Origin: Loxodes magnus
Lineage: Eukaryota; Ciliophora; Karyorelictea; Loxodida; Loxodidae
Direction of reading: 5' to 3'
Assembly (NCBI GenBank): GCA_946699065.1
Contig: CAMPDV010002006.1
Location: forward strand, 1 to 64,000
DNA length: 64,000 nucleotides
Within the stretch, counting starts at the first letter, position 1, and each line of letters opens with the position of its first letter. Positions 17,197 to 48,099 of this stretch are shown here, in pieces. A program made the translations under genes and the position numbers. The notes beneath the pieces are model-generated. The model was not told where the DNA came from, did no database searches, and saw only the letters and a program-made list of their open reading frames with translations.

Positions 17197-17244
17197 GATT
17201 AGTATTATATAGTAGTATATTGATTATTCAAACACTTAAATTCA

Positions 17245-19890
17245 TTAATCTAAATCAATATATTAATTTAATAAATTCATTAATTTAATAAAAACATCTC
17301 ATCTCATACTTCTCTTAAAGTCCTACTCACTCATCTATATGTTGCTTATTTCACAATTACTCAATCTCATTCCATAGGGAGCATATACACTATTCCAATC
17401 CAACTACTTTATTATTAAATTAATTAAATTGACACCTACCTATCCCACAGATTCATCAACACTTAACAACCTCTATACATTCCATCTTCTCAAGTAGCCA
17501 TATTCATCCCCAGAATAAATCCATCTTGAATCCTTTGATAATGCCAAGGAAAATATTAGATATTCGTGACCACTCAAAGTTAATACACACTAACCAGCTG
17601 AAAAAGACCATATCTTTATGGTTGAGTCATATGACGCTGATATGATATATCTAGAGTCAAAGGAGATTACTACCGAAGAAATAAAATCAGTATGTCCCTC
17701 TAAAGTTCTCAGGAGAGTACCATCAGGGAAATTTCAGATCTTTATGGTTGTGTCATCAGATGCTGATATTATATATCTAGAGTCATAGGAGATTACTACC
17801 GAGTTAACTGGACGAGTATGTCCCTCTAAAGTTTTAACACAGGAACTAGATAAAAAATCCCAAAATGAACTTTATAACTTTCATATCTTGATAGTTTTAT
17901 CAGATGATGCTGATATGATATATCTAGAGTCATAGGAGATTACTACCGAGTTAATAAAAGAAGTATGTCCCTCTAAAGTTCTCAGGAGAGTACCATCAGG
18001 GAAATTCCAGATCTTTATGGTTGAGTCTCATGATGCTGATACTATATATCTAGAGTCCAAGGAGATTACTACCGAAGAAATAGTATCAGTATGTCCCTCT
18101 AAAGTTCTCAGGAGAGTACCATCAGAGAAGTTTCAGATCTTTATGGTTGAGTCTCATGATGCTGATATGATATATCTAGAGTCAAAGGAGATTACTACCG
18201 AGTTAATATAAGAAGTATGTCCGGATAAAGTATTGATTAAAGCAGATGTTTAATAATCTCAGATCTTAATTTTTTTATCCCATGAACCAGTGATAATATA
18301 TTGATTGTCAGGAGAGATAGCTATTGAACTGATGTTGTAGGAATGACCTTTAAGTTCATGAGGATACTCAGTTGCTATATCGGAAAGATTAGCATTACTC
18401 AATACACAACCGATAAACTTAGTATTCCTTAAATTACATTGATGGAAACTTGAATTAGAGAAATCACATTTAGTAAATGTCATGTCCGACATGTCTGCTT
18501 ACACTAATCTCATGTTGGAGAAATTTTATTATGATGCAAACTTAGCATTCAGGTAGTTAAGTATCGTTATCACATTCGATGATACCTACGATACTTTCTA
18601 TGATGTTCTAGATAACTCTAACACCTAATTTAATTTATCAGCCAGTTATTAATTAGATACCCTAGATAACTATAATAAGACCGATGTCTAAAGGGTTAAG
18701 CTTGAGTGATTTAAAGGATGTTACTTCAAAAACTAAATATCAATACTTTATTGTTGTATTAGTTGGTTTAAGATTTAATTTAACTATTCGAATGTTAGAG
18801 TATTGAAATTCACTAAGGCTTATTTTATCAAGTTTGGCTACTCTTAAAGCTATTCATTTTATAAGTTCTATTACTCAAACTAAAGTTCGATAATATGTTG
18901 AAGTAACTTTTAATATTTTCTTTATAGAGTACTTGAAACTTCTTGGTATATTTTAAACTGAGATTAGTCTTTTTATTTTACTTATTCTGGAACTTATTAT
19001 TTGTCTTAGCTTTATTGTCTAGGAGAGGCTTAGTCTTAATATAAGTATTATAATTATTGGCTTTGCTATATTTCTTATTATTGAAGATCCTATAATTGTT
19101 TTTGCTGAAACTACTTTTATTATTATTGACCTTGACATAAACTACTTATTACATTTTATTAACTGAAATAAGATTCTATTAACTAACAAGCTTTTTAATA
19201 AGTTAATATCTAACCCTATGAATAATCTCTCAGAAAATTGAAGACATTTAAGAGATAATACTGAATATTATATCGCAAACCTTAATCATTCAAATTTAAA
19301 TTATATTCTTACTTCATCACATTGATTTCTCTTAGTATATCCGTAAATTATTACTATTATTCTTATAGCTAATACTGATTTGCCTACTGCTGGTGGATAT
19401 GCTAGCGCTATTACTATTATTATTAAATGTTGAGTTCCGATAATCGATTCAATAAACTCTTAATTCTATTAACTCTTTAAGTATATTATTCTATCAAGAT
19501 CTTGAATATTCATTTAATTACCTACTAGCAGATATTATTCCACTATTAACTAACACCATTTATAACATTTCTTATAAACTATAGCTGCTCTTATTTCTAA
19601 TTCTATTATTCCTATAACCAATCGAGTTATTGATTTAATCATAATTAATCCAATGCACGAGGTTGCTGAGGCAACAAAGGTTATATTGGTTATTATACCA
19701 TATAGTTTTGTAGATCCTAAGGACTTATAATAAAAGTTTGCTGGTGATTTATACAATATACCATTCTCGTAAGCTGATATATGGCACTTAGACAGTTGAA
19801 ACATTAAACGCAGTTGCAAGGAAGTTGCTTGGCTTAAAACTAACCTTAATCGAAAGCATTTCTACAGTTAGGACACTGTTATATATCCAT
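17245..19890 (-). CDS. RING-like / Gln-rich coiled-coil / pentapeptide / 7-blade WD40 protein, copy 1
   Basis: From ATG at 19890 one frame stays open for 881 codons to TAA-TGA (17247-17242) when TAA/TAG=Gln and TGA=Trp. Order: residues ~6-50 a cysteine cluster (QQCPNCRNAF, then PCNCVQCFNCL) like a RING-type zinc finger; a long Gln-rich helical middle; around residues 445-500 pentapeptide-like repeats (NMRLVQADMSDMTF, CDFSNSSFHQCNLRN); then seven WD40 blades of the form GHTxxINSVVISxDSRYIIS followed by ASxDxTIKIW. Blades differ mainly at a few residues (after GHT, before DSRY, after SAS). The last blade ends LRRWNVQ and a ~95-residue tail follows. Likely a ubiquitin-ligase-like or recognition protein with a propeller binding face; the E3 role is inference. 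Nearly the same gene lies at 45153-47780. The 2646-nt length is a multiple of three with no frame break. Confidence 0.9.
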
Positions 19891-20107
19891 TTATAAAAAA
19901 TAAAATTAGTTTTAGTATTTAGAAACTAATTACAATGAAATAAAAATTAAAATATTTAAAATTTAATTATTAAATTTAATTTATTAATAAAATACAAACT
20001 AATAAAGATTAACTTCTCTTAAAAAATGAGAAAAAAGAGATGGTTTATATCCAAAATATAGGGGACCAAATCACAAAAGATGGGGCACTCCTATCAAAAA
20101 TCCGAAA
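19891..20107. promoter_or_regulatory. Upstream region of WD40 gene, shared by both copies
   Basis: About 215 bp of AT-rich DNA between the WD40 ATG and the 18S fragment, nearly identical to 47781-48004. It must contain the promoter if the genes are transcribed from their own start. No specific element can be named. Confidence 0.35.
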
Positions 20108-20549
20108 AGAGAAAATAACTCAAGGCAGAAGATACTGAATCTACAATCGACGAGATGAAGCCCAGTGTCGTTATTTCTTGTCTCATTCAGGATTGGGTAA
20201 TTTGCACGACTGCTGCCTTCCTTAGATGTGGTCTCTCAGGCTCCGGAATTGAACCCTAATTCTCCATTACCCGTCACTGCCATAGTAGTCCAATACCATC
20301 GAAAACTGATAGGGCAGAAACTTGAATGATCCGCCATGCTTCATGGTCCTTGTGTATTATAATTCCCACACTGACGATATCTAATAAACATCTTTCATGC
20401 ATTTTAGAATTACTACGATTATCTAACACACCATCAAATAAATTATCACTGTTTTAATGAACCATTCGCAGTTCCACTAGTAAATGCTTAAGCATGCATG
20501 GCTTAGTCTTTGAGACAAACATATGACTACTGGCAGGATCAACCAGATT
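20108..20549 (-). rRNA. 18S rRNA, 5' fragment (copy 1)
   Basis: Reverse complement begins AATCTGGTTGATCCTGCCAG, the universal 18S 5' end, followed by GTCTCAAAGACTAAGCCATG and GTTTCTGCCCTATCAG. It stops after the GACACTGGGCTTCATCTCG region, about 440 nt in, and runs into non-rDNA sequence. The truncation point is the same in copy 2. The remainder of 18S lies at the opposite end of the rDNA block. Confidence 0.93.
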
Positions 20550-21310
20550 TATACTTTTCTATTTTCATCCACTTTTTCTATATACTCCTTTTCTCCCCCT
20601 TCATTTATGTTTCGTAACACTACCCTTCAACTATTCATACTCCAACCCACCTTTTACTCCTACTTGTCTTAAAAAATATACGCTAAGCCACCACTATAGT
20701 CATCAAGATCTTCTTACCTTCTTAGCCATCCTTCATTTCTTATATATGCATTTCTCAATTTTTAGATTCACGCCTTTGTCACACATAACTCATTCATTAA
20801 GCACATCATTTTTTCTTTCAAGTCTCTTTTCTACTTTTTATCTACTTATATTGAATCTTCTTTTCTCAAACGGTAGCACTTAAAGGGCTTAATACTTAAG
20901 TATCATCTTCTTCGTTTCATTCTTCATCTATCAAAACTTTTTCTTTTGCTTTCTCTTTTTTCAAATTTTCAAAAATTTGAAATTTTGTAGTTTAATAATC
21001 AAAATAAGTTAAAGTAAGTAAAACCCCAGCAGAGATAGTAATGAGAATCTCGATGTAAAACCCTAGATAGATGATATAAATATAAGTAACTAAAGGTACT
21101 ACTAGGTACTACTAGGTACTAATAGGTATGACAAGGTAATACAAGGTATTAAGTGATACTATTAGATAAAACTTCTCGTATAAATAGGCATTAATAGCTA
21201 CAACTACTCGGTACAACTAGGTTTTACTTTTAGGTGCTACTTCTCATTATAACTAGGTACTATTAGGTCTTACTTTTAGGTACTACTAGGTATTTAAATG
21301 AGTAAAGTCC
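20550..21310. other. rDNA intergenic spacer (copy 1)
   Basis: Between the 28S 3' end and the next 18S 5' end. The part at 20560-21000 is pyrimidine-rich on the plus strand. At 21085-21300 it has degenerate tandem units around ACTAGGTACT. Spacer organisation implies derivation from a tandem rDNA array. Confidence 0.75.
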
Positions 21311-24085
21311 CAGCAGAGAGATAAAGAAGAGATAGATCAAGTGACTTTGGAATAGTCTCATCAGATTGTAAGGCAAGCTTACTCTCATGCGTACAACACC
21401 AGGCCAATACTTAGTGGTCTACGAAGGATCTATCCTATCTACTTGTATGTGATGAGCCATTCTTATTCTGTTAACAGACATGGGGAGGGCTTGAGGATAT
21501 AAAAAGTATTGTTTTCATAAGTAGATAGAAGGCGTCGCTCCCAGATTAAATTCTGACTTAGAGGTGTTCAGTCATAATCTATGCAGATGGTAGAGTAGCC
21601 ACACGGACTGCTCAACCAATGGCAATACCAGAGATCTGGACCAACGAATCCTCTCGTACTGAGTTGGATTACTGTGGTGGCGCAGTGATCAGTAGGGTAA
21701 AAATAACCTGTCTCACGACAGTCTAAACCCAGCTCACGTTCCCTTTTGACGGGTGAAAGATCCGATACTTGTGAATTCTGCTTCATAATGATAGGAAGAG
21801 CCGACATCGAAGAATCAAAAAGCAACGTCGCTATGAACACTTGGCTGCCACAAGCCAGTTATCCCTGTGGTATTTTTTCTGACACCTCTTGCTTAAAATT
21901 CGTAAAAGGATCGATAGGCCATAATTTCCCAGTTTATCCTGACAATGAGACGTTAAATGATGCCAGCTTTTCCCCTTTTGGCCTGTGAGCGGTTTCTGTC
22001 TGCTCTGAGCTGGCCGTAGGACACCTGTGTTATCTTTTAACAGATGTGCCGCCCCAGCCAAACTCCCCACCTGGCGGTTTCTCTCACTCAGTTACATTGC
22101 TAGAAAGTTACTGAATGACAGTAGGAATCTCGTTAATCCATTCATGCACGTCACTAATTAGATAACGAAGGCATTTGGTTACCTTAAGAGAGTCATAGTT
22201 ACTCCTGCCATTTACTCGTGCTTCGTTGAATCTCATCACCTTGACTTTCAGAACACTGGGCAGAAATCACATTGTGTTAACAGATCACCTTCACAATGCT
22301 TTGTTTTAATTAAACAGTCGGATTCCTCCTGCCGTTCCAGTTCTGAGGTGGCCATTCGCCGCAGGGCCGACCACCTTCGGTCATGGCGACAAAACTCCCA
22401 CTTCCGTGAAAATTAAGTTACACAATCCCTCCAGTGGAGACTTCTACCTAGCCCTCAGAGCCAATCTTTCTCCCGAAGTTACAGATCTAATTTGCCGACT
22501 TCCCTTACCTACATTATTCTATTGACTAGAGGCTGCTAACCTTGGAGACCTGCTGCGGTATAGGTATGAATACTCCTACATATTACATGCCACAAGTTTC
22601 ATGGATCGTAGTTGGTGCTCCAGACAACACATACAGTTTACTACTCTTCCATAAATCACGCCTCCCTCACTATAATGGATCCAGACACACATGTATATTA
22701 GACAGAAAAGACAACTCTCCCCCGACATATTACAGCATATTGTGTCACCACTATGTAGTAAGTACCTATGGAATATTAACCATATTCCCTTTCCCTCGTA
22801 AAGTTAGGATCGGGTTACTCATAATACAGTGCGGTTCTCATGAAAACCTTCTCCATTTCAGTCTTCCAAGTTGGCATTGGAATACTTGCTACTACCACCA
22901 AGATCTGCACTAATACCTGCTCCATAACTCTTCACAGAATTACCTCCATGTAGATACTACACCCTCCTACACCAGAGGGCAGAGTATGGGCACCAGCCTT
23001 TCGCGACTTCCATTTTCAGGGCTAGTCCATTCTGTAGGTGAGTTGTTACACACTCCTTAGCAGGTTCCGACTTCCATGACTTCCGTCCTACTGTCTAAAT
23101 GGATTAACGACTTTTCTTGCAGACAGGTTCTGTCGCCTTAACTCCGTTTCAGGTTGCCCTCATCGCCAGTTCTGCTTACCAGGATTGGCCCACTAGGGAC
23201 ATTTATGTCATGTCACGTTCATTTATGAAACGTTACTACACCCATTTAAAGTTTGATAATAGGAGGAAGGAGTGACTCCTCTCGAACCTCTATTTATTAG
23301 CTTTACGGATAACAAGAAAAGTCCCAGCTGTCCTGAGGGAAACTTCGGAAGGAACCAGCTACTAGATGGTTCGATGAGTCTTTCGCCCCTATACTCAGGT
23401 CCACAGAGCGATTTACAAGTCAGCACCTACACGAACCTTCAATCAGAATTTCCCCTGGCTTCGTCCTGCCCAAGCATAACTTACCATCTTTCGGGTCCCA
23501 GCCATTTCGCTTACTCTACTTACGGGTCTCTACTGATGGTAGAGATCACTTTCATTTCGCCTACACATTTTTCTGCACAGACTCACGATATAGCTAGACT
23601 CCTTGGTCCGTGTTTCAAGACGGGACGATCTGTCCATTATATCCTTGCAATACTTCTTTTCAAAGCTTTGCTCAGATTTATTGTAGACGCACAGCTTCCT
23701 CTCCAACTATTTCAGGTCTTTTAACTCTCTTTCCAAAGTACTTTTCACTTTTCCCTCACGGTACTTGTGCACTATTGGGCTCTGGACGTATTTAGCCTTA
23801 CGAAGAGTTTACCTCGCACTTTGGACAGCAATCCATGCTGTCCGATTTTTAGATAGTTTGGTTTTTAATCTAATTGAACCTCACGGGGTTATCACCCTCT
23901 ATGACGTGTCATTCCTGACCAATTTGGTCAATCAATCCAACACCATTCCTCCCTAACTTAGATAATTCCGAAGATTTACAAGTGGGCTTTGACCGCTTCA
24001 TTCGCCGTTACTAAGGCCATCCTTTTTAGCTTCTTTTACTCCGCTTATTGATATGCTTAAGTTCAGCGGGTTATTTTGCTCCCCT
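21310..24085 (-). rRNA. 28S rRNA (copy 1, internal deletion)
   Basis: The minus strand starts near CCGCTGAACTTAAGCATATC and runs through conserved blocks such as CTCTTAAGGTAACC and GGATTAACGAGATTCC, to the 3' region with GAACACCTCTAAGTCAGAAT. Around 22118 a block of about 180 nt, present in copy 2 (49122-49303), is absent; the junction is at a GACAGTA heptamer present on both sides in copy 2. The lost block is conserved 28S core near the peptidyl-transferase domain, so this copy cannot give a normal rRNA. The exact 3' end is uncertain by some tens of bases. Confidence 0.9.
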
Positions 24086-24161
24086 CAAATCACAAATACA
24101 TATACTCAGTTTTTTCACTTGGTAAAAGAATTCTTATTCACTTACATTTGTATTTTATATG

Positions 24162-24312
24162 ATACTGAAAGGAACATACCTTGAGTTTCCCCAAGGTGCC
24201 TGTTGCGTTGGGAAACCTGATGACTCACGAAATCCTGCAATTCGCATTGAATTTCGTGCTTTGCTGCGTCCTTCATCGACGTCAGAGCCTAGGCATCCAT
24301 TGTTGGGGCTTT
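24162..24312 (-). rRNA. 5.8S rRNA (copy 1)
   Basis: Reverse complement contains GACGTCGATGAAGGACGCAG and TGCGAATTGCAGGATTTCGT, the hallmark 5.8S core, between ITS1 (24313-24401) and ITS2 (24086-24161). Ends are approximate. Confidence 0.92.
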
Positions 24313-24401
24313 TGTTTTATTTAAGTTTATATATTTGATAAAATGAAAAGCAGCATAAAGCTGTAAATAAATTTGATTTTTGTAATGTTTGATATTAATA
24401 T

Positions 24402-24515
24402 TAATGATCCATCCGCAGGTTCACCTACGAATATCTTGTTACAACTTCTCCTTCCTCTAAGTGGTAAGGTTCAATTAGCTTCCCATTAGTCCGAGAGGTT
24501 CACCTGATTACTCGA

Positions 24516-24550
<35 letters not shown>

Positions 24551-25418
24551 TAGGGACTTAATCAGTGCAAGCTGATGACTTGCGCTTACTAGGAATTCCT
24601 AGTTGATGACCAAGAATTGCAAGGATCAATCCCAACTACGACGCAGTTACGAGGTTGCCGGAGTAGCTATACTTAGAAACTCATTGGTTAGTGCATTGTA
24701 GCGCGCGTGCGGCACAGGACATCTAAGGGCATCACAGACCTGTTATTGCCTCACACTTCCTCCAACTAAAAGCTGGAAGTCCCTCTAAGAAGACAACTTC
24801 CTCGGATAGAAAGAGTCTATTTAGCAGGTTGAGGTCCCGTTCGTTATCAGAATTAACCAGACAGATCACTCCACCAACTAAGAACGGCCATGTACCACCC
24901 ATAGAATCAAGAAAGAACTCTCAATCTGTCAATCCTTACTATGTCTGAACTTGGTAAGTTTCCCCGTGTTGAGTCAAATTAAGCCGCAGGTTCCACTCCT
25001 TGTGGTGCCCTTCCGTAAATTCCTTTAAGTTTCAGTCTTGCGACCATACTCTCTCCAGAATCCAAAGATTTTGATTTCTCGGAAGGTGCCAAGGAGATTT
25101 ATACGGTCTCCCCGATTCCTAGTCGGCATAATTTATGGTTAAGACTAGGACGGTATCTGATCGTCTAGGATCCCTTTACTTTCGTTCTTGATTAACGAAA
25201 GCATCCTTGTCAAATGCTTTCGTAGTAGTTGGTTTTCAGTAAATCCAAGAATTTCACCTCTGACTACTGAGTACCAATGCCTCCAACTGTCCCTATTAAA
25301 GATAGTAGATAGTCTCGCAAAAAATAACCACGAGTTTTATTCCAGCTGCGGTATTCAGACAGGAGCCTGCCTTAAACACTCTAGTTTCCTCAAGGTAAAG
25401 GGCCCGCCAAAGAAATTA
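24402..25418 (-). rRNA. 18S rRNA, 3' portion (copy 1)
   Basis: The 3' end is GGTGAACCTGCGGATGGATC then ATTA at 24402. It contains TTGTACACACCGCCCGTCGC-type sequence and AGGTGAAATTCTTGGATTTA. It begins abruptly near 25418, roughly the middle of 18S. The central few hundred bases of 18S (including the 530-loop region) are missing from both pieces in copy 1. Confidence 0.93.
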
Positions 25419-26138
25419 AATAAATTTTAGCCAATTTAATAATAAGGATTAAAGCACTTTAATGTTAAAACAAATTGGAACAGCTTGAACGAGAAAACTA
25501 TAAAAAATCATGGATCCAATTTATATGCAAGACTTATTATAAACACTGATAATAAGAATCCAAACATTGTAAGAAGATCTAAATAAAAAGAAGAATTTGA
25601 AGATTTCATTGGAGATAAAGAGCCTTACTATGGCGGACATTACAAACATCACAGGAAAAAGAATACTAAGAGATAGTCTTCAAATAATAGAAAATGAGAT
25701 CTGAATTTTTCAAGAATAAGATGAAAAAAACAGGGTGAAGCAAGATTAAATAAGTAAATATATTAAAAGAAAATTACAATAATTCCTACAAAATCCTAAT
25801 AGATTAATTATATTTCAATGTAAATAGAGAAATAAATGAAAAAACATAAATAAAACCAAAGGGAATAAGAAAATTATGCAGTATTTGCAAAAATTGATGG
25901 TACCTATGACTAAAATTTCCGCAGCAAGAGAAAAAATAAGAGCAATCTGAAGATCGATCTGACATAAGGCAATAATTTTTCCATCGAGCGATTGAAAGAT
26001 CTGAAGGAAAAAAAAGAATAACTGGATAGGAGCTTGAGTTCTATTAGAAAAAAGAGACTCCTATAAACTTTAAGATCTTTTTAAATTTCTAACCGGAAGA
26101 TATACCTCATTTATACTTTATTATTAAAAAAAAATTAA
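25419..26138 (+). pseudogene. Hypothetical gene, 5'-truncated at the rDNA junction
   Basis: Starting right at the rDNA break, one frame reads about 240 codons with good protein character: SLNEKTIKNHGSNLYARLI, NPNIVRRSKQKEEFEDFIGD, KEPYYGGHYKHHRKKNTKR, ENYAVFAKIDGTYDQNFRS, then a coiled-coil tail NFSIERLKDLKEKKEQLD. TAA/TAG read as Gln and TGA as Trp inside. The first in-frame ATG is deep in the frame, and the coding character starts at the junction, which suggests the rDNA fragment replaced the 5' end. The stop is set at TAA 26136-26138. No known domain seen. Confidence 0.5.
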
Positions 26139-26199
26139 ATCTATAAATATAAATAACGTGATTCCACCATTACTATGTTCACCAAAATTCAGAAGAAGA

Positions 26200-29100
26200 A
26201 ACCAAATTTTACTGTTAATAATAATCAAAAAATGTTTTAGTTTTACCTGACCTTCTTGATGATCATATGCTTATTCTATCTCCTCTTCCAACTATCTAGC
26301 GCTTGTTAATTTGAGAATTAAGGATCTATTTCTACTAATGAATCTTTCTGAAGCAATTGCTTATTTATTATTATCTATTGTAGTCTTTTTTATCTTCCTT
26401 GTTTTTATTTCATCCGTGAACTTTTTTTTACCTTTCTTAGATCATATTCCAACTTAGTGTCAAATTAGTCTCATTTACTTTTTTCTACTTTTAGTTTTTT
26501 CTTGTTAACAAGTACTTTGTAATTTCAGATATGCTCACTTGAACTGACTCTTTAATTCTAACTTATTTTTCTATGGAAAGTGAGGGTTTTATTTAGATAT
26601 CCCATTTTACTTTCTTTGGCAAACTTTCGATAAAATCTTTGAACCTATTAAGATTTTTGTTCTTTCTTTAATGATTTACTTCAGCTTTCAAACTCGTAAT
26701 TTCCCCAGACTATTTTGATTAAGATTAATTTAATTAGCATTATATTTGTTTGTTTTTTCTAAGTTCTATTGTCTTTAGTTTTTATACTAATATATCTCTT
26801 TCTTGTTAGTATTGTTCAACATATCTCAATTATGTGAATTTCATCTAATACGCCATTTGAGCATAATATTCATATATTATTTTCAAGCAGGTGTCTTACC
26901 TTTAAAATTTAATCAGCTCCACTACTTTTGTCTCTAAATCTAAACAAATAACAAATTTCCTATTTTCTGTGTTTGTTGTATCTTAGATAATTGGGTGAAT
27001 TCATAATAAATTATTACAGTAACTTCTCTGTTTGAAACTTGTCGTAATATCCTATATGCGGTTTATTGTTTCTACATTGATGTGGAATTTTATAGCTTCA
27101 TTTAATATTAATTTGATCTTTTTTCGTTTCATTCTTCCTAAACTATAATTCACCCATTGATTGCAGTTTATCAGAGCTTTTAAAGATTAAATTTCAAATA
27201 GAATGTTGTTTTTTAGCAGATACATTCAACATTCTACTGTTGATTCGAAATTTAATAGTAGTTTGTATCTGAACATTACATCTGTTATCATAAATAGAAT
27301 TAAATTTTAGTAAACTGCAATACGCACTCTAGTATTTTCGTTTTATTTGCAGAAAGAACTATCTATTATCACTCTTATAAATCTACGTTAAATTATTTCC
27401 AGTTTCTCTAGTATGTTATTACCTATAGTTTCGTCTTTGAATGGAAAATATTTATTTCCGTATCCGAAAATTTAAACAAAGCTTTTAGTATCATTTTCGT
27501 ATTATATGATGTAATACCTTTTTATAATGTGATTTAATAAAGGATTCATCCTTATGTCTTTTAACATTCAGTAATCTTAAACTCTAGATGTTTTTAGTAT
27601 GATACTTCCTCTTATATTCAGTGACCTAGAAATTTAAAAGTATTTAAACTTTATATTTCCATACCAGTTAATTTATTGTCGTTTAGAATTTCATATTATT
27701 TCCATTTCATAATTGTCATTTTGTTTTTTCAGCCATTGACAAGATGTAACTTTCAGCTCATTTGTATAATCTTCATTCTTTTCTTGTACTTAGTCTGGCT
27801 AAACTATGTAAGCTATGTCATCAGCATAGGCTAACTGGTAAAACATATGCAACCTTATTTGGATTCCTTTTCTGTAATAAACTTATCCGAAAAGAGGTAA
27901 TTTATTCTCAATTTAATGTCTTCTTCTCTGTATATTTCAGCAAGAAGTTTTATTAATTATTCTGGTACTCCTATTTCATTCAAGCTTTATCATATCTTCC
28001 TTATAACTGATTTAAAAACTTTCATTATACCAATAAATTAAAAATACATCTTTTTTGTTTTTATAAAGATGCTCCTAGATAGTTCTGAGGTTGAAAAATA
28101 TATTGAGCGTAAGATTTATTAGGGTTGAAACTGTATTATAATTCATCGTAAAGTCTAATTAGATAAGATTTAGTTATTCGAATATCCATAGATTTATAAT
28201 TTTTAGGATATGATTAATAAGGGAAATAGGTCTTCAATTCATCGGGTTAGCTGTGCTTATCTTTTTTATGAATAATTATAATATATGGTCTTTTGTTCTT
28301 CTAGGAATATTTCCTGATTCTAATATTTCCCTATTAGCTGAGTCGTTACCTTTATTAATTTTTCCCCTCCGAAATTTATTGTACCTGATTTTATTTGATC
28401 TGTCCTATTGCTTTTCATTGTGATAAATTTCTTATAAATTAATCAATTTCTACCATTTTGGTTTCTATTGGTTGCTTATTTCTAAATTGATTTAGTAGAT
28501 TATTATTTCTATTCCTATAGAAATTTTCTCAACTTGTCTTGAAGAGTTGGATGCCTTCTTAATTTATTAGTATTCACGTTGCTATTTTTCCTCTTTTATA
28601 TAATCTCTGCATATTCTTTCATGTGTCACTTAGGTTTCCTTTATTGACTGCATCTAGGAGAATATTAAATTGATTTCTATAATCTTTTTCATACCTTGTC
28701 TATATTCCTTTCTTATTCTGATCTCTCGTATTATATCTGGCTTATCTTATTAATCGTTTTACTTTGATGGCATGATTTTTGAATTATTTTCTTAGTTGTT
28801 TCGTCTCATTTGAATAATTGTATTTTTTCGGCATAGAAATAGTATGTCCACATATTAGAATTGTGCCTTATTGAATTTATTCTTATAATTTGTCATAGAA
28901 TTTTTCATAACTATGAGAGAATTGCTTATTTCCATATCTTCAACTTATTTCTAGAAATTTTCTTATACCAATTTTTATTGAAGTTTTTAAAACTGATCTT
29001 TTTTTACTTTACTTAATCACTATTTTTTTAACTATTTATAATATTAGTCTGCTAGGTTAATGATTTCCTAATATCCTGCTTTGATAGAATTTAGATTATA

Positions 29101-29760
29101 TTATGTTGTGTGTAGTAAATTGGTCTGTTAGATAGTAATCAATCTTGAATCTACCTCTCCCTTATTACCGTGATATATGTTGGATCTTAAGCTAGGTCTT
29201 TTCATGTCAGATTAAACTCTTGCATAAAATTCGATAGGTATTGTCCTACTACATTTTGTTTATTTGGTAAAAATTATGGCATATGAGCATAAAGTCCCCC
29301 ATAATTAGTATTTAAAGCTCTAAATCGTTTGCTATATGAACAAAATATCTTACGCCATCATAGAAAATACCCAGTTCTGTTTTATCTTAAGTTGTGGATG
29401 TGTAAATGCTAATTATCGCTAGTCTACTATCAAGACTTAAACTAATTATCTGCAACCCTAATATATTTCTGCTTAGTTAAGTCCATACACTTCATTTTTT
29501 TACTCTATTTATTCGTTTATCTCTAACGTAAAACGCCACACTTTACTAGATAAATGCCTACTTTTATGGTAGCTCTGAATCCGTAAAGATATAGGATGTT
29601 TTAAATTTGAGGTACATGAATCTCTTATTTGGACATAATGTGTATCTTATTTTCTTGGATGAATTGAAGTAATAATATTTTTTAAGGTCTTAATCCTCTT
29701 ATATTGATGTTTGTAGATTTAGTTTTTCTTATTCTAATTACAACTGGTTAACCCCTATAT
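26200..29760 (-). mobile_element. Decayed LINE (non-LTR) retrotransposon with AP endonuclease and reverse transcriptase
   Basis: Minus strand, 5' to 3' from 29760. Endonuclease (about 29545-29150): VAFYVRDKR, ILGLQIISLSLDSRLAIISI, IANDLELQILIMGDF (the GDFN motif), then PTYITVIRE. Linker and RT (about 28450-27600): SGNIPRRTKDHI, ISTANPMNWRPISLINHILK with W as TGA at 28236-28234; motif A region FIGIMKVFKSV, where the catalytic Asp position appears to be Gly; IGVPEQLIKLLAEIYREED; ESKQGC (motif B); and LAYADDIAYI at 27828-27817 (motif C). The sequence between motif B and YADD is too short and out of frame, and several other frame changes occur, so the copy is dead. 26200-26700 reads as a basic coiled coil of unclear relation. 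Such elements copy themselves through RNA by target-primed reverse transcription. Confidence 0.85.
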
Positions 29761-30920: not shown

Positions 30921-30926
30921 TACTCA

Positions 30927-34760: not shown

Positions 34761-34799
34761 TAATCTAATTTATTCTAATCATCATTACATTAACAAGAG

Positions 34800-36360: not shown

Positions 36361-36383
36361 TTTTAAATAATTAAGCAAGCTTC

Positions 36384-36911
36384 TTAAATATCTGAATGCT
36401 CCCCTCAAGCCATGAATTTACCGGAGATCTCTCTAGTCCTATATATAAATGTTGGCCATTACATTGAGTCTTGTATTTTCTAAAGATTTTAATGTCTGTA
36501 AACCATTGTTTGGATATTCTCGGCTAGAATCTTATCAGCTCTTTCCAATTTAAATTGTCTTAAAATTTCCTATATTCTATAAATTTGTTGTAATATCTCA
36601 CCAGACACCTTTCAGAATTACAAAAGAGAAATTTCTTCTTATTTTTATTTTTAGTCTCAACTAGCAGCTCTTTTTCACTTTGTTAAACCAATTATTTCAT
36701 AACCATAATATAAATGTTTCAACTGTAATTCTAAATCAACTTCAGTTTTTATTGATCCAAAGATATTTTGGACGTTAATTACTAGTAAATTCCAAAGATT
36801 TGCTCTATATAGGCAGATTATGAAATAATTTGTAGTAAATTTTCTAATGAATATCTCTTCTACCATTAATTTAATTTTATAAAGTTTTTCCAGTCGCAAC
36901 TGTTGTGCCAT
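36384..36911 (-). CDS. Hypothetical protein
   Basis: ATG at 36911 opens MAQQLRLEKLYKIKLMVEEI. The frame continues through NYFIICLYRANLWNLLV, FGSIKTEVDLELQLKHLYY, WKRAASWDQKQKQEEISLL, FWKVSGEILQQIYRIQEIL, KLERADKILAENIQTMVYR and FIYRTREISGKFMAW. Stop candidates are TGA (36407-36405) or TAA (36386-36384). TGA encodes Trp at least twice inside (KWKRAASW). The helix-rich composition suggests a helical or coiled-coil protein of about 170 residues. No family recognised. Even by the standard code the first 78 codons are open, which supports the frame. Confidence 0.5.
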
Positions 36912-37047
36912 ATCGGTGCTTTTTTGATTACTTTAGAGGAGTTTATGTAAGGGATTATTGCTAGCCGTTTTCTAATTTTCTATTTTTCTTCACAGCTAGT
37001 AAATTTACGATATAATGAAGATTGAGATAGATTAGGATAAGAAGATG

Positions 37048-37080
37048 AGAAAGAAGGAAAGAAAGAAAGAAAGAAAGATG
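37048..37080 (+). repeat. (GAAA)n microsatellite
   Basis: Short run of GAAA/GAAG units, about eight repeats. Confidence 0.85.
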
Positions 37081-39530
37081 TCACTGTCTATTCAAATTTT
37101 TTGAGGATGTAGTTTAAAATTTTTTTTGAAGCATTCTAGCATTTTTTATGAATGATAAAATTAATAATAAAAAAGTTAAAAATATAAAAAATAAATAGTA
37201 ATTAAAACATATCTTTTTTAATAATTTTTATGCTTTATTGACTCTTAACTTTAGAAATTTAAATAAATAGTGTTTAAAATATTTTTTAATTAAGCAAAAT
37301 TTATAAAATTTGATATTGCATTAAATTTTAAAATAAAAGCAAACGTTTAATTAATATTATTAATTTTAAACTTTTTTTATTTCATTCAAAGTTCTACAAA
37401 TAATTATCTATTTTAGTTTTAAATTTAAATAAAAATATAAACTTTATTTATTTACTTCTGATATAATAAAATAATTCATAAATTTAGCTATATTTACTAT
37501 TTTTTTTATTCCATATAATTATTTTATTTTTTCTATTATTAGTCTATAAAATTAATCTATTAATATCTTTCTTTTATTTTTGCCAAGATTTTCTAGACCA
37601 TATTTATTAGAAAGTTTAGATATCAGTAATAAATAATATCAAACAGATATTTCAGCACCAAAACTTTAAGTATTTGAATTACTTCTTTCAGAGATTTTTG
37701 CTTTAATTTAATTAAATTTAATCCATTAAAATAAATAATGCTCTTTTATGAAAAATAAATAAACTTAAAAGTACTTTGAATTAAAATTTCTTTAGTAATT
37801 TTAAAATTTAAAATTAATCAGATTTATATTAAATTTATTAAGAAATAATTTAAGATTAATAAAAGTTTTATTCAAGATAAAAAGTAAAACTTTTTTGAGG
37901 TTTTATTAAACAAAAATATTTTATGTAATTTTATAGAAAATATTAAAAAAATAAACAAAAGACAAGAAGAAATATCTAGGTAAAAATTAATTAAATCTAT
38001 CTCAGATAAGCATTTTTTAAAATAATGTGTTAAAATGATAATTTTAAATACTATTAAAAAATTATATTATAAATTTATTAAAATAAAGAATTTTAAAAAT
38101 GATGATAATTTAAATAATAGCAAATTTATAAAATAAATATGATAAAAAAATTTTTAGAGACTCTGTAGTAGATAAATTGAAATTTTTTAATCTAATTAGA
38201 AAGATAATAAATTAACGAAGTTACAAGAAAATACTAAAAAATAATGTAAGAGTTTAATACTAAAAAATAAGAAAAATAAATTAAAAAATTATTGATTGAA
38301 AGAAATTTTTAATATTTTAATCCTTTTAAATCATACTTTATAATAATTTATTTACAAAAATGTATGGGAAACTTATGATTAGGTTTGCATAAAAAGATAA
38401 CTGAAAAAGAATAAGAGATAATTCAGAAAAAATATAAAATCTATATCTAAGTTATATTATCAAACAAGCAAATTCAAGATATTTTAATAGAAAATCGGAG
38501 ATCTCAGTAAAGTAGCTTACATAATTTATTTTTCAGATAAAATGACAAGTGATTTCTGTGTTATCAGTTAAATATTTTAAATAAATTAAAATTTTTGTTT
38601 AGGAAATACTGCAAAAATATTATTTTATTTTATTATTTAAATATTTTAGAATATTGTTATTATTATACAAACTAAGATTTAACGCTTTGCTAAATTTTAG
38701 CAATTGTTTGTTAATTAATTATTTAGAAAGTTAGTAATCATTTTTATAATTTTTTATGTTATAAATGCTTACTTTTTTTGCATACTCTTATAGTATAATA
38801 TTTTAATAATTACTAATAATTATTAGAAGACTCTGAGGTAAATTTTACTTTAAGATGAATAAATTAAACACTTTTTAGTAAAATTTATGAAAAAACAAAA
38901 ATATTTAAAGCTATGATGGAGATATGGAGATTTCACTTTGTTGCTGTATATAACTTTTTCTTTAGAATGTTTTATAGGAAAATTATAAATTATGTATTAT
39001 TTTTTAATTAAGCAGTGCTTCTAATGACGCTTTTCTCAAAAAAATTTAATTGCTACGATGATAAAATAATAATCCTCAATAATTTATATAAACGACTAAT
39101 TATTAGTTTTGAAGCATTTAAGCAAAAAGATTTAATCTATATAAAAATTAATTAAGACAATCAAAATAAATTTAATTTGTTAATCATAAGCATATCATTA
39201 CAAACTAATAAATCATTTATTTATAACCCTATATCACATATTGCATTTCAACTCCAAATATGACATATATAGATAAGTTGTATGTCTTTCAATATAATAA
39301 AATTATTTCTATAATTTGAGAATTAGTTGAGGGATATATTATATTCCATAGAATTAATTTTGAATAATAGAAATAATGCAAGAAATATCCTTTAAATAGT
39401 TTGTAAAAATTAGTTTCCTAATTATTAAATTTATAAGATATTTTAATACTTCAACTTCATTATAAGATATTAAAATCAATAATTACCATAATTACAAGAA
39501 ATCAAGAAATCAATCAAATTTGTTATTGTT
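37080..39530. other. Extremely AT-rich stretch without recognisable gene
   Basis: Long A/T runs with little G or C. No domain, RNA or convincing coding frame. Confidence 0.5.
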
Positions 39531-39542
39531 ATATTATACCAA

Positions 39543-40030
39543 ATGGCACCTAAGAATAACAGACCTCTCCAAAAAAACATAATAACTCGTTACAGGAAAT
39601 TACAACAATCTCTACCTTCTTTAGATGAAGAATCACAATTTAACAAAGGATATTAAAGCTCTATCAGTGAATTTACGATCTAATCAACACTATGGAATTT
39701 TTTAAATCTGAAAACTCAATATTACGATAGGAATTATCTCTAAATCTGTCTCTGTAGCAAATTTAAGGAAGAATTTTATAAAAAGAATAGATCTTAAAGG
39801 AATTTAAAATTCCAGAAACTCTAAGCCAAAAAAATCCTAATAACTCAACGACCCAATGGATATAAAGCAATAACCTCCAACATAAGAGATTCCCCATCAG
39901 AAAATAATAATATTCTGATATTGTAAGAGTCAGAGAATAAAGTACAGAGTTGTTACCAATTTTTATAAAAATAAAAGAGAGTAATAGAAAAATAATGGAA
40001 ATATATATTTAAAATATACTGATCAAACGT
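39543..40030 (+). CDS. Possible coiled-coil protein gene
   Basis: ATG at 39543 gives MAPKNNRPLQKNIITRYRKL, then QQSLPSLDEESQFNKGYQ. Further on a different frame reads more naturally as coiled coil: MEFFKSENSILRQELSLNLS, GRILQKEQILKEFKIPETL and YSDIVRVREQSTELLPIF. A one-base shift or short intron near 39660 is needed to join them. Function unknown. Confidence 0.3.
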
Positions 40031-40501
40031 AGGCTTACTTTATAGAAAAAAATACTTAAACTTAACAAATAAGCTCCCTATTTCTAATAAACAGTCAATT
40101 AATTTAATAGAAAATAATTGTGAATTGACTTATTGGAAAAAATAATGAAAATTAATCTAAAATTATGACGTAAAGATCCAAGCAAGTTAAGGTGAAAATT
40201 TTTATATAAAATTAAACTCTTTGATTGGTGGCAAACCAAATAAATGAAACCCATCATTAATCTATTATGCTATATTATAATTTTTTTTCTTCATATACTT
40301 AGAACCAATTATATCCTTAAGTAGTATTAATTTATTTATGGATTAACTATCATAAACTTTATTATAACTTTAAGAAATTTAATAAATTAGTTCTAATCAA
40401 AAAAATAATGTTTTCTTAATTTAATTGAGGTTTATTTATATACATTTTTAAAGCTTATTTAATATTCAATAACTTCTCAACTTTGCTTCATAGTCGTAAA
40501 G

Positions 40502-40517
40502 AGCAACCCTCGTTGCT
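40502..40517. other. Short perfect hairpin at inner edge of arm R2
   Basis: AGCAAC-CCTC-GTTGCT. It shares the CCTCGTT core with the hairpin at 386-416. Confidence 0.35.
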
Positions 40518-40559
40518 TATGAACATTTGCTAGAATGAAATTTTACTACTTAGTCGTAA

Positions 40560-41309
40560 TATTAAATTTCAATATTAAATACATTAATAAATGGAGAGAA
40601 ATTTCAAGTTTTTTATACCTTTTAAGTTATCATTTCCCTTCATTTGACAATGGTTTATTTCGTATCTAATCTTTTTTTAGATCCTATTGTTATAAAAAGT
40701 CTTACTAATTCTCTTCAATCTCTTTATTCTTCTTGTCAAGTCATTAGTAGCAAAAGCAGTTTTTATTATATGCTAGGAAGATTTGCAGTATCAGCACTTT
40801 TTTTTCTATTTATGTTTTTATTTTGGAAATAAATTCTATAATTTTTACATTCTTTTTTGTTATCTTAGTTCTTTATATTTCTATCTAATAATTTAATTGA
40901 TAAGTATCAATATCAATTTTAATTTCTTCAATGATCGTTGAAATTCCTCTATTTATTTATCCTAGGATTAACGTCAAAGTTATTCTTCTGTTAAGATTTT
41001 ATTTTGGTTAATTACTTCCATAAAAATGTAATTTCTAAGAAAAATTGTTCAAGATGCATCATCAGTTCTCTTAATTTATTTGAAAGAATGAAATTACTTC
41101 ATCCTGTTTGCTAAGAGTTTTCTTCATTTTGTCAAATTACTTGAATACAGAATAATTTTCTTATTCGATTGTTGAGATGATGACCTAGTTACCTTGTAGT
41201 TTTTACCTTGATTCTATGATAATTTTTTATTGATTTTTGCTTTTTCACTTTTAATCAAGCTTATCTCCTTCCTTTCTTTGCTAATTTTTTATGTTCTGTT
41301 AATTTCCAT
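40560..41309 (-). pseudogene. Conserved arm gene, R2 copy
   Basis: Homologue of the gene at 3208-3707. ATG at 41309 gives MEI like the L copy. Later pieces read GNQVIISTIEQENYS, VFKQFDKMKKTLSKQDEV, TDDASWTIFLRNYIFMEV, KQIEEFQRSLKKLKL, KKSADTANLPSIQQKL and WQEEQRDWRELVRL, but they need frame changes between them. Peptide conservation with the L copy (IIS-IEQEN, QFDKMK, DDASWT, DTANL) argues the family once encoded this protein. Unknown function. Confidence 0.4.
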
Positions 41310-43502
41310 TTTCATGGGTATTTAGAATTAATTTTTACATTTTCATAATGCAGTATAACTTATATAAGTTCATAATTACTTCTTTGTAGGATTTTTATTG
41401 CTTTATTCTATTTTTTTGTAATATGATCAATAATGAAAAATCTAGCATCTATATCAAAATATAATGATTAAAATAAAAATAATGCTTAGAGAGATTCTAA
41501 GGATTAAAAGATGATAAAAGGTAATTATCTGTAAATACTATCAAATATTATTTAAAATAATAAAATAGTTTTTAGTTATTTTTACAGCAAAACATTTTAT
41601 GTAGATCACTAATTTGCTAGATAGTTCAAATTTACTGAGTAGTTAATAAATTACATATTAATTCTATTTAATCTAATGAAAAATGTTTATCTCATTTATA
41701 TATCCATAAAACCTATTAGCAAGATTTAAATTTTAATTAGAAAATTTAATAAAGCTATATATCTATAATTAAGTAAATATTTACTATACCATTTTAAAAT
41801 CTTTGTAGGTTATTAAACTTTTTGTAGCATTTGGAATAGTTAGTAATCTAAATATATTATTTATAGCATTTAAATTTTATACTATTTCTATCCTCCATAT
41901 TTAATAACTTCTGCTTATATACTATCATAATTTGAAGACATATATTGGCATTTTTAACTATTTTTTCTGTAGAAGAAGGATTTTATAAAGATTACTTTGT
42001 TTCTAATTCGCTGTAAAATATTTTTTTATAAACTACTTCTAATTTCCATTGGAAAAGTTTAGGACATTTCACTGAAAGTAACATACATATTGGAAACATT
42101 TTTTTCTTACTTTTTCATTTGTATTTATTCGCTGGAAATTTAAACTTGCTTATTAAAAACTTTAAAATAAAATAGTTCTTAGTCTATTTAAACATTTATT
42201 AGACATTTAGATGCTGGCCAAGTGATAGGTTTTAAACCCATCTACACAAGTTCTACTTTATCAAAATCTAAAATTCGCTTACCCTAAGCTTATTTAACAA
42301 TAAATTATGAATTTTAAAGATTATGTAAAGGAGTTAATAAACTAATGAGATTTTATTAAACAATCATGTCTATTCTACTTTTTCTTTTTTAGTTTATCCA
42401 ATTTACTATTTAATAATTTCTTGCTTTTATATCTTATTATTTGGATATTTTAAAAAATAAGCTTCTTTATTAACCTTATTTGCTTTTTTAAATCATATTA
42501 AAAGTAAAATTAATGTAAAAAGATCAGAATATAATTCAGAATCTCTAATTATAAAAAATTAGCAAAATAATATGATTTTATTTGCTGATATGCTAATAAA
42601 TAGATAATTTAAAGCATTAATTTTCTTTATTAAAAAGTTTATTTTATTTCAAATAAATTTCAATAATTATTTAATTATAAACAATCAATAATTTAGGTTT
42701 ATAATTAACTAATTAGTTATATATACCTTATTTTAAAGTTAAAATATTGATAAAACATAAATAGTAGTGATATATATAAACTAGTTATAAAATAGATTTA
42801 AACTTAAAACCTAATATTTATTTCTAAGAATTAATTGAATATCTCATTTAAATTTCCCATATTTTCTATAAATAATTAAAAAAATTAAATTTTTATTATA
42901 AAAATGTTAGTTTGTTAAAATTATAGTTGTTGATGAATAAAAATTTAATACTTTAATATAGTAATTTTTAAATTATTTACTTAGCATTTAATTTTGTTTG
43001 TCATATAATTATTTATTCTTTTAATAGCTAAAATTTGTTAATATTTTTTTAGTATCTCTTCAATCATAAATAAAGTATTAGATATCTTATTTATTCTAAA
43101 ATTTAAGGTAACGTTTATAATACGGGACATAACTTATTTTAATTATATTAGTTAAAAAATAATTTAAAGATATTGTATAGCATCAAGAAACTCTACAAAT
43201 TTCCATACTAAAATTATTTAGAGCCTTAAATTTTCTTCTACAGTTAATCCATATCTTTCTTATTTTTTTCAAATACAATTAAAAAATTTTAATCAGCTTT
43301 AATAAATTTTTCTTAAGAAATTTTGTTTTTCTTTTATTTAAAAAATTTCTTTCGGTGCTTTAAAACTTCTGAGATGGTAAAAGTTTATTTTTAATTTAAT
43401 ATTTTTACTTAATAAATTTCTCTATTAAATTACTGCGAAAATAACATGCTGAAAAAAATAATTGATATTAAAGTATTAGTCTGAAATTAAAAAAAAAAAA
43501 TT

Positions 43503-43541
43503 ATTCCGTCCAAAAATTTTCCTGTAGTGTAAAACGTTGAG
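43503..43541 (-). repeat. Arm motif, R2 copy 1
   Basis: CCGTCCAAAAATTTTCCTG, then TAGTGTAAAACGTTGAGC, facing left. Confidence 0.7.
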
Positions 43542-43591
43542 CAAAAAAACAAAATTAAAATTTTTACACATTTATCTATGTTTACATTCAC

Positions 43592-43628
43592 AATATTTTT
43601 GGAATTTTTGGAATTTTTGGAATTTTTA
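43592..43628. repeat. Ten-bp tandem repeat (GGAATTTTTG)
   Basis: Three to four tandem copies inside the 274-bp segment that R1 lacks. Confidence 0.7.
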
Positions 43629-43771
43629 AATCTCAGTCCTTACTTTGTATAAATGCTCTCAAGTCCATCTACAACTTTACCAGCTTATTCTTTAAAAATC
43701 AAAAAATTTTTACTTAACCGATTTTTTTACACTTTTATAAATTCAATCTTATTTCAAAATTTTTTTAAAAT

Positions 43772-43815
43772 TTTGGTCCGTCCGAAAAATGTCTTGTAGT
43801 GTAAAACGCTGAGCA
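43772..43815 (-). repeat. Arm motif, R2 copy 2
   Basis: GGTCCGTCCG, then TGTCTTGTAGTGTAAAACGC and TGAGC, facing left. Confidence 0.7.
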
Positions 43816-44257
43816 AAAAAACAAAATTAAATTTTTGGCATTTTATTATGCATTTATTAATTTACAAAAAAAATTAAACTTTTAAAATATATCACTGTTC
43901 TTATTTATATCGAAAAATAATTTTATTCAGATTCAAAAAATTAAAATTTTTTCTTACAAATATTTTTTATAAATTAAAATTATTCCTTTTACTAATATGT
44001 TCAACTCTCTAAAAAATTCCTTTTTAAATTTTCAAACTTTTTTTAAATTCAAAATAAAAAAATAACCAAAATGCTGTAAAAAAATATTCCTTTTATTAAA
44101 AAAAAAAAAAATTTTTAAACTTTTTTCTAAAATATATTTAAAATTCCTTTCTTAAAATTTAATTCCTTTAATTCAAAAATTTTATCACTTCTATCTTTTA
44201 ACACCTTTTAAACTTTTTATACCCTCTCACACCCTTTGTCCCATTTTGCAAAAATTT

Positions 44258-44296
44258 AGTCCATTCAAAAAAATGTCTTGTAGTGCAAAACGCTGA
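44258..44296 (-). repeat. Arm motif, R2 copy 3
   Basis: TAGTCCATTC, then TGTCTTGTAGTGCAAAACGC and TGAGC, facing left; matches the outer R1 motif. Confidence 0.7.
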
Positions 44297-45152
44297 GCAA
44301 AAAAACAAATTTCTTATTTTCACAAAAATTTACACTCAAATATCTATCTTATTACACTAATTAAATACAAAATTAAATTTAAATTAACTTAATTTAACTA
44401 CACCTTCTATTTAATTCACCCATAAACTCCTAAAAAATTTATAAATTAAATATTGCACAGAAATTTTTACAATATAAAAAATTTTATACTAAAAAATTTT
44501 ATAACAGAAACTTTTATACCATAAAACTTTTATAACAGAAAAAAATTATAACAGAAACTTTTATAATTAAAAAGATATTACTTTTATAATTTTCCAAATA
44601 CTTTCTTTCTCTTTCAATAAAAAAATATTAAAAAATTTAAATACTTTTTTTATCTTTATACTCTTAAAATTATTCAACCCTCTCTCTTCTCACAAAACAC
44701 TATTTCTCATTATAAACAATTATAAACATTCCACTATTCTTAAAATAATTATCCTTTTAAAATACTTAAACAATAACGTAATTACTCTTTTTGATTAAAA
44801 AAAAAACACATTCTATCCTTTATTTAGTAAATACTTACACCCTCTTTTATACAAATTTAATCTAATCCAACATACTCTTACACCTCAACAATTTAAACAA
44901 AAACTTATATCATTATACTTTATTATTATTATAATTTATTCAACTACATTGCTACATAATTGCTTAGAGTTGTAACTCAACTTTAGTATACATTAAATAC
45001 ATTATCATTGCTGTTTAACCGTATAATATCATAGTAATATTTATATATGAGTATAACAGTATAACTGTATAACTGTATAACTGTATAATAGATTAGTATT
45101 ATAACAGTATAACCATATAGTAGTATATTGATTATTCAAATACTTAAGTTCA

Positions 45153-47780
45153 TTAATCTTAATAAATATATTAACTTAATAAGTTCATTAATTTAATAAA
45201 AACATCTCATCACATACTTCTATTCAAGTCCTACTCACTCATCTATATGTTGCTTACTTCACAATCACTCAATCTCATTCCATAGGGAGCATATACCTCA
45301 TTCCAATCCAACTACTTTATTATTAAATTAATTAAATTGACACCTACCTATCCCACAGATTCATCAACACTTAACAACCTCTATACATTCCATCTTCTCA
45401 AGTAACCTTTAGAATCCCCAGAATAGATCCATCTTGAATCCTTTGATAATGCCAATGAATATATTGCATATTCGTGACCACTCAAAGTTAATACACACTA
45501 ACCAGCTGAAAAAGATCATATCTTTATGGTTGTGTCATAAGATGCTGATATGATATATCTAGAGTCAAAGGAGATTACTACCGAAGTAACAATATCAGTA
45601 TGTCCCTCTAAAGTTCTCAGGAGAGTACCATCAGGGAAATTCCATATCTTTATGGTTGAGTCATTTGACGCTGATATGATATATCTAGAGTCAAAGGAGA
45701 TTACTACCGAAGAAATAGAAGAAGTATGTCCCTCTAAAGTTCTCAGGAGAGTACCATCAGGGAAATTTCAGATCTTGATTGAGTTTTCAGGATATCCTGA
45801 TGCTGATACTATATGACTAGAATCAAAGGAGATTACTACCTAGGTAACAATATCAGTATGTCCCTCTAAAGTCCTCAGGAGAGTACCATCAGAGAAGTTT
45901 CAGATCTTTATGGTTTTGTCTCATGATGCTGATATGATATATCTAGAGTCATTGGAGATTACTACCGAAGAAATAGTATCAGTATGTCCCTCTAAAGTTC
46001 TCAGGAGAGTACCATTAGAGAAATTCCAGATCTTTATGGTTTTGTCATGTGATGCTGATATGATATATCTAGAGTCAGAGGAGATTACTACCGAGTTAAT
46101 ATCATTAGTATGTCCCTTTAAAGTATTGATTAAAGCAGATTTTTAATAATCTCAGATCTTAATTGTATTATCCCATGAACCAGTGATGATATATTGATTG
46201 TCTGGAGAGATAGCTAATGAGCTGATGCATTTGGAATGACAATTAAGTTCATGAGGATATTCAGTTGCTATATTGGAAAGATCAGCATTACTCAATACAC
46301 AACCGATAAACTTAGTATTCCTTAAATTACATTGATGGAAACTTGAATTGGAGAAATCACATTCAGTAAATGTCATGTCCGATAGATCTGCTTACACTAA
46401 TCTCATGTCGGAGAAATTTTATTATGATGCAAACTTAACATTCAGGTAGTTAAGTATCGTTATCACATTCGATGATAACTACGATACTTCCTATGATGTT
46501 CTAGATAAGTCTAACACCTAATTTAATTTATCAGCCAGTTATTTATCTTATACCCTAGATAACTATAATAAGACTGAGGTTTAAAAGGTTAAGCTTGAGT
46601 GATTTAAAGGATGTTACTTCAAAAACTAAATATCGATACTTTGTTGTTGTATTAGTTGGTTTAGGATTTGATTTAACTAATCGAACGTTAAGGTATTGAA
46701 ATCTACTAAGGCTTATTTTATCAAGTTAGGTTATTCTTAAAATTATTGAACTTAAAAGTTCTATTACTCTAACTAAAGTTCAATAATATATCGAAGTAAC
46801 TGTTAATCATCACTTAAAGCAGAATTTGAAACTTCTTGGCATATTTTAAACTGATATTAGTCTTTTTATATTAGTTACTCTTAAACTTATTACTTGTTTT
46901 AGCTTTAGTGTCTTGGGGAGGCTTAGTCTTAATATAAGTATTATAATTATTGGTTTTGCTATATTTACTATTATTGAAGATCATAAACTTGTTCTTGTTG
47001 GGACAACTTTTATTATTATTGACCTTGACATAGACCTCTTATTACATCTTATTAACTGAAATAAGATTCTATTAACTAACTGGCTTTTTACTGAGTTAAT
47101 ATCTAACCCTATGAATGATCTCTCAGAAAATTGAAGACATTTAAGAGATAATACTGAATATTGTATCGCAAACCTTAATCACTCAAATTTAAATTCTATT
47201 CTTACTTCATCTCATTGATTTCTCTTAGTATATCCGTAAATTACTACTATTATTCTTATAGCTAATACTGATTTGCCTACTGGTGGATATGCTAGCGCTA
47301 TTACTATTATTATTGAATATTGAGCTCCGATAATCGATTCAGTAAACTCTTAATCTTATTCACTCTTTAAGTATATTATTCTATCAAGATCTTGAATATT
47401 CATTTAATTATCTACTAGCAGATATTATTCCACTACTAACTAACACCATTGATACCATTTCTTATAAACTATAGCTGCTCTTATTTCTAAACTTGTTACT
47501 CCTATAACCAATCGAGTTATTGATTTAACCATACTTAATTCAATATTTGATGGTGCTGATGCAACTAAGGCTATATTGGTTATTGTACCATATAGTTTTG
47601 TAGATCCTAAGGACTTATAATAAAAGTTTGCTGGTGATATCTACATACGACCATTCCCGTAATCTAGAATACTGTATTTAAGCAGTTGAAACATGAAATG
47701 CAGTTGCAAGGAAGTTGCTTGGCTTAAAACTAACCTTAATCGAAAGCATTTCTACAGTTAGGACACTGTTACATATCCAT
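45153..47780 (-). CDS. RING-like / Gln-rich coiled-coil / pentapeptide / 7-blade WD40 protein, copy 2
   Basis: Paralogue of the gene at 17245-19890. ATG at 47780; frame open for 875 codons to TAA (45155-45153) followed by TGA, the same TAA-TGA ending as copy 1. Same domain order. Pentapeptide part reads LVQADLSDMTFTECDFSNSS and NADLSNIATEYPHEL. The seven blades carry their own variable residues (ASHDKT, ASWDKT, an ASGYPENS insertion, ASNDST, ASYDTT). The 18-nt length difference from copy 1 keeps the frame, so both copies look under selection as protein. At the conserved blade Trp, copy 1 and copy 2 swap TGA and TGG in several blades (for example blade 6: TGG at 17610-17608, TGA at 45518-45516). 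In one blade Ser-Ser before VVIS is Thr-Gln with TAG. Confidence 0.9.
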
Positions 47781-48097: not shown

Positions 48098-48099
48098 AT

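Follow-up and report, generated by a model that had tools for sequence, protein, structure and literature searches.

The window studied here, a stretch of 64,000 nucleotides of Loxodes magnus DNA (positions 1 to 64,000 of contig CAMPDV010002006.1, assembly GCA_946699065.1), carries two related WD40 genes, copies A and B, and the frames of both are open only when TAA, TAG, and TGA are all read as sense codons, as the initial annotation had claimed. We are nearly certain that the two genes are ordinary paralogues in L. magnus macronuclear DNA, written in the karyorelict code (NCBI translation table 27). Under this code, UAA and UAG (UAR) would be translated as glutamine by tRNAs whose anticodons are UUA and CUA, and an internal UGA would be translated as tryptophan by a tRNA-Trp(CCA) with an anticodon stem cut to 4 bp, the read-through itself being taken from the literature. 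The last UGA would be the stop, set by its closeness to the poly-A tail or transcript end, a position rule that is likewise taken from the literature. The codes of Condylostoma magnum and Blastocrithidia nonstop, which also have to be weighed, are tables 28 and 31, respectively. The initial annotation had named the karyorelict or the Condylostoma code; all three stop codons have sense meanings in these genes, and the karyorelict code is the published code of Loxodes, given as table 27 in the L. magnus somatic genome paper (PMC11441545). That code, known from Loxodes and Parduczia, has UAR as glutamine and UGA as both tryptophan and stop, and we found no difference between it and what we see in the window. 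The observation is correct and it is not new: the code and the mechanism are already known, and the window is one more instance.

Both genes lie on the minus strand. Copy A (17245..19890, read from 19890 to 17245) has 882 codons and copy B (45153..47780, read from 47780 to 45153) has 876 codons under table 27, one more in each case than the 881 and 875 given before. Copy A consists of a cysteine-rich N terminus and a glutamine-rich middle, both recognized by eye, followed by pentapeptide repeats and seven WD40 blades. The Pfam WD40 model matches with E values of 1.2e-78 (copy A) and 1e-75 (copy B), and the Pentapeptide model with E values of 2.4e-9 and 5.2e-9, respectively. Within these frames there are 61 TAA, 38 TAG, and 9 TGA triplets in copy A and 56, 40, and 8 in copy B. 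With the standard code, the whole 64-kb window yields one open reading frame (ORF) of at least 150 amino acids.

The meaning of TGA can be read from the codon that closes each WD40 blade, where a tryptophan is conserved. The blades of copy A (17482..18261, minus strand) close in the order TGA, TGA, TGG, TGA, TGA, TGG, TGG, with TGA at 18259-18261, 18133-18135, 17881-17883, and 17734-17736 and TGG at 18007-18009, 17608-17610, and 17482-17484. The order in copy B (45390..46154, minus strand) is TGA, TGG, TGA, TGA, TGG, TGA, TGG, with TGA at 46152-46154, 45900-45902, 45768-45770, and 45516-45518 and TGG at 46026-46028, 45642-45644, and 45390-45392. Our recount therefore gives TGA at 8 of the 14 blade ends and an exchange of TGA and TGG between the copies at blades 2, 3, 5, and 6, exactly as first reported. 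Two other motifs cited as examples of TAG encoding glutamine fared less well. The only TAG in a "VVTQ" context, in copy B, faces serine in copy A and lends no support to that meaning, and "GHQ" occurs in neither copy. An in-frame TAG does lie within the motif "AGQCVL" in both copies.

Aligned over 874 codons, the two copies are 83.9% identical in amino acids and 90.0% identical in nucleotides, and this divergence allows the codes to be compared. Eight columns pair TGA with a sense codon, which is TGG in six, CAT in one, and AGA in one. A code scan of the alignment scores TGA best as tryptophan (61, versus 12 for tyrosine) and TAA and TAG jointly best as glutamine (22, versus 1 for glutamate). 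The ratio of nonsynonymous to synonymous substitution rates (dN/dS), a comparison that had been proposed in the initial annotation, is lowest under table 27 of the six codes tried: 0.50 (bootstrap range, 0.38 to 0.66), compared with 0.59 for the standard code, 0.55 for table 6, 0.56 with UGA as cysteine, 0.55 with UAR as glutamate, and 0.58 with UAR as tyrosine. The excess of silent changes over simulation has z values of 1.91 for the standard code, 2.37 with UAR as glutamine, 3.08 with only UGA as tryptophan, and 3.14 for table 27. All six single-step transitions from TGA fall at position 3 and give TGG (P = 0.005, based on the numbers of transitions that this pair shows at each codon position). 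The 12 single-step transitions of TAA and TAG fall at positions 1 and 3 and never at position 2, a pattern that is weak on its own (P = 0.14 with the pair's own counts and 0.008 with equal thirds).

The same divergence bears on the possibility that the two genes are pseudogenes, that is, decayed WD40 copies lying beside dead ribosomal DNA (rDNA), with stops that arose by mutation under the standard code. In favor of this, incomplete rDNA does adjoin both copies, but the dN/dS of 0.50 speaks against it, as does the depletion of differences at the second codon position (100, 57, and 106 differences at positions 1, 2, and 3; chi-square P = 0.0003). The gene family argues further against decay. 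It comprises at least 48 near-full-length open copies on 25 contigs (e.g., C189, C234, and C686), a lower bound, as 48 of 25,635 candidates were scored; copy A is one of the 48, and copy B is not listed. Each of these copies has 4 to 13 TGA and about 100 TAA or TAG codons in the matched stretch. In a set of nine paralogues, made up of copies A and B and the blade regions of seven further copies out of the remaining 47, all 63 blades close with TGA (35) or TGG (28) and no third codon occurs; the code score of this set is again best for TGA as tryptophan (36.3, versus 6.3 for tyrosine). We therefore consider pseudogenes extremely unlikely. These counts speak against decay for the family, and any single copy could still be untranscribed. 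A looser blade pattern had returned 3 lysines besides 25 TGA and 20 TGG codons; we took the lysines for misreadings at "DLTIK," and the blades were recounted in the nine-paralogue set.

An independent test of UAR as glutamine is provided by the eRF1 gene of the genome (L096:1456-2763, 436 amino acids), which matches chain 1dt9_A, presumably the human eRF1 chain, with 532 bits. Nineteen in-frame TAA or TAG codons are aligned, of which nine face glutamine of that chain and two face glutamate; for comparison, CAA faces glutamine in two of seven cases. The glutamine of the GGQ motif is itself written TAA and is aligned with glutamine. The gene has no internal TGA. These numbers matter for a code of the Blastocrithidia type (table 31), in which UAR is glutamate and UGA is tryptophan. 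Three TAA columns of the nine-paralogue set do score best as glutamate, but both the joint scan of copies A and B and the eRF1 alignment favor glutamine, and to this code we give virtually no credence. Two matches to the eRF1 N-terminal domain lie about 35 kb apart in the genome (C196:19713 and 54613), and the one that was read has R-A-Q-NIKS where chain 1dt9_A has T-A-S-NIKS.

Several observations weigh against reading the two genes in table 27. In the comparison of copies A and B, TAG taken alone scores higher as tyrosine (8) than as glutamine (4), and the nine-paralogue stretch scores not only TAA as glutamate but also TAG as serine above glutamine, on 3 and 4 columns, respectively, which is uninformative. 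The z value hardly gains from UAR as glutamine once UGA as tryptophan is granted, so that most of the gain comes from UGA. Because blades can exchange sequence, the swaps of TGA and TGG may not be independent of one another. The dN/dS is 0.67 in the WD40 and C-terminal part, compared with 0.39 ahead of the WD40 part. In both copies, TAA lies 7 codons or fewer from the presumed stop, which runs counter to the depletion of UAA close to the stop that is reported in the somatic genome paper (PMC11441545). Elsewhere in the genome, tandem 126-bp WD40 blades form long runs (C1503:12600-101600 and C119:708000-737000). In the C1503 arrays (8 loci, partly overlapping) the blade-final tryptophan is TGG in 176 of 178 blades and TGA in 2, and TGA stands mostly at positions that are phenylalanine or serine in other blades; as independent evidence for UGA as tryptophan, these arrays are uninformative.

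The tRNA genes agree with table 27. We searched for them by loop patterns with reversed-pattern controls, and fetched loci were called by ARAGORN. Genes with UUA and CUA anticodons, which the initial annotation had suggested looking for, are both present in the genome. The UUA pattern gave 174 matches compared with 1 in the control, and all three fetched loci were called as tRNAs; the CUA pattern gave 114 matches compared with 46, so that some are due to chance, and five of five fetched loci, picked from a recurring tRNA-like sequence, were called. ARAGORN labels these tRNAs Stop and Pyl. The code scan, the eRF1 alignment, and published work make it likely that they carry glutamine, and the joint scan, the 9 of 19 eRF1 codons with GGQ among them, and the two kinds of tRNA gene all fit this meaning of UAR.

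The situation is different for UGA, for which a tRNA-Trp(UCA) had been expected. The pattern for such a tRNA gave 6 matches compared with 10 in the control, and ARAGORN called none of them a tRNA, a result that covers UCA tRNAs conforming to the pattern, as those off it would escape. The tRNA-Trp(CCA) pattern gave 126 matches compared with 13, and of 22 places fetched, 21 were called Trp(CCA) and one (C12) gave no tRNA. In all 21 copies read of the 126 matches, positions 27 and 43 are unpaired (A.C in 11 and U.C in 10), which leaves an anticodon stem of 4 bp; a 5-bp form may occur among the remaining copies. The missing tRNA-Trp(UCA) does not refute UGA as tryptophan, because UGA is most likely read by this tRNA-Trp(CCA). 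Such a tRNA has already been reported for Loxodes and Blepharisma in two papers (PMC13092985 and PMC12005148), in which Blastocrithidia is also described as reading UGA with a tRNA-Trp(CCA) of this kind. The device shared with that organism is thus a point in favor of a table 31 code, but Blastocrithidia differs in UAR, which stands for glutamate there. Our search of a limited literature collection returned nothing on tRNAs of L. magnus or on WD40 proteins in Loxodes or karyorelicts.

Among the matches listed, the tRNA-Trp(CCA) genes include tandem arrays at C67:482323-491201 and C148:155464-169180, with units of about 187 bp and 241 bp. The arrayed genes are of two types, with A or T at position 27, and the stem is 4 bp in both (21 copies read). 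Other loop patterns led to ordinary tRNAs. TCCAA (176 matches) returned, among the matches listed, nearly always one sequence, which is Gly(TCC) according to ARAGORN at the one locus tested; TCTAA (143 matches) was Arg(TCT) in 17 of 20 fetched loci; and TTTAA (342 matches) gave a recurring sequence that was called Lys(TTT) at 6 of the 20 loci fetched. A combined tRNA pattern had 5 matches compared with 2 in the control, none of which is a tRNA by ARAGORN (0 of 5) or by Rfam (0 of 3). The combination of CTCTAAA with a GGTTC arm had 2 matches compared with 5, and the CUA tRNA was found once the arm was relaxed to GTTC. In the window itself, Rfam places two tRNA genes at 12354-12566, without a call by ARAGORN.

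Termination is where the karyorelict and Condylostoma codes part. The putative stops are TGA at 17242..17244 (copy A) and 45150..45152 (copy B), both on the minus strand, each with TAA directly before it and with the last in-frame TGA 19 codons upstream. In table 28 the sense meanings are identical, but UAA and UAG also act as stops near transcript ends. Because both copies end in TAA-TGA, they alone cannot tell table 27 from table 28, and the UAA could be the true terminator. The eRF1 gene points away from this: it closes with TGA, and the final UAR among its 436 codons is codon 423. In the published L. magnus work, UGA is the only stop (PMC11441545). C. magnum resembles L. magnus in having three sense stops, with no tRNA-Trp(UCA) reported as detected there (PMC4967479), and in its tRNA-Trp(CCA) with a 4-bp stem (PMC13092985); it differs in that UAA and UAG also terminate there (PMC4967479). 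A Condylostoma code is therefore very unlikely here, and the karyorelict code is the one that we retain.

Past the stop of copy A, by about 45 bp, the window has an 8-bp tandem repeat, TATAACTG, in about 49 copies with 96% match (16682-17196). A far shorter and decayed version of this repeat follows copy B (45050-45127). A codon-usage scan of the window, trained on both genes, found no further coding stretch except one weak one, inside the rDNA.

Permuted rDNA lies directly upstream of each WD40 gene, at 20138-25541 and 48000-52577 on the minus strand. Along that strand, the order in unit A is the 3' part of the small-subunit (SSU) rRNA gene, 5.8S, large-subunit (LSU) rRNA, about 0.8 kb, the SSU 5' part, about 250 bp, and the WD40 gene. 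The SSU match at 24402..25541 lacks the 5' 600 or so model positions, and good alignment starts near model position 740; it is followed by 5.8S (24160..24311), the LSU (21332..24092, model positions 1 to 3401), and the SSU 5' fragment (20138..20546, model positions 4 to 605), all on the minus strand. This fragment is 409 nucleotides long, ends near model position 480 to 605, and lies upstream of copy A in the same orientation. Unit B (49060..52577, minus strand) has the same order, with the SSU 3' part, 5.8S, and the LSU only to model position 2620, and it is missing the 3' end of the LSU and the bulk of the SSU 5' part; its rDNA looks defective.

We also sampled about 400 bases upstream of each of four paralogues. 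All four have a BLAST match to window sequence upstream of copy A or B, and in three of them the Rfam SSU model is reached, as a truncated 5' fragment in the orientation of the gene; the fourth resembles the deleted form at copy B. Sequence derived from rDNA, either spacer or SSU start, thus precedes both window copies and the four sampled paralogues. The units recur at about 28 kb: copies A and B are spaced 27,908 bp apart, and among the 48 copies listed, 7 of 23 same-contig intervals are 27.6 to 28.1 kb. On the simplest reading of this arrangement, it would be a relic, in which a unit of rDNA, broken open within the SSU gene, had been captured next to a WD40 gene before both were amplified together. 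Because the SSU fragment shares the orientation of the gene wherever it is recognizable (copy A and three of the four paralogues), an rDNA promoter could drive an mRNA. That the WD40-pentapeptide genes might form a family of protein genes driven in this way by RNA polymerase I is an idea suggested by the sequence layout, and we consider it quite unlikely.

With the code already published for Loxodes, the value of these genes is that of a clean worked example. Raw sequence alone can reveal a code without a dedicated stop, because paralogues swap TGA and TGG at a structural tryptophan, and the release factor writes the glutamine of its own GGQ motif as TAA. They also caution that conventional gene calling would be nearly blind in this window, with one ORF of at least 150 amino acids in 64 kb.

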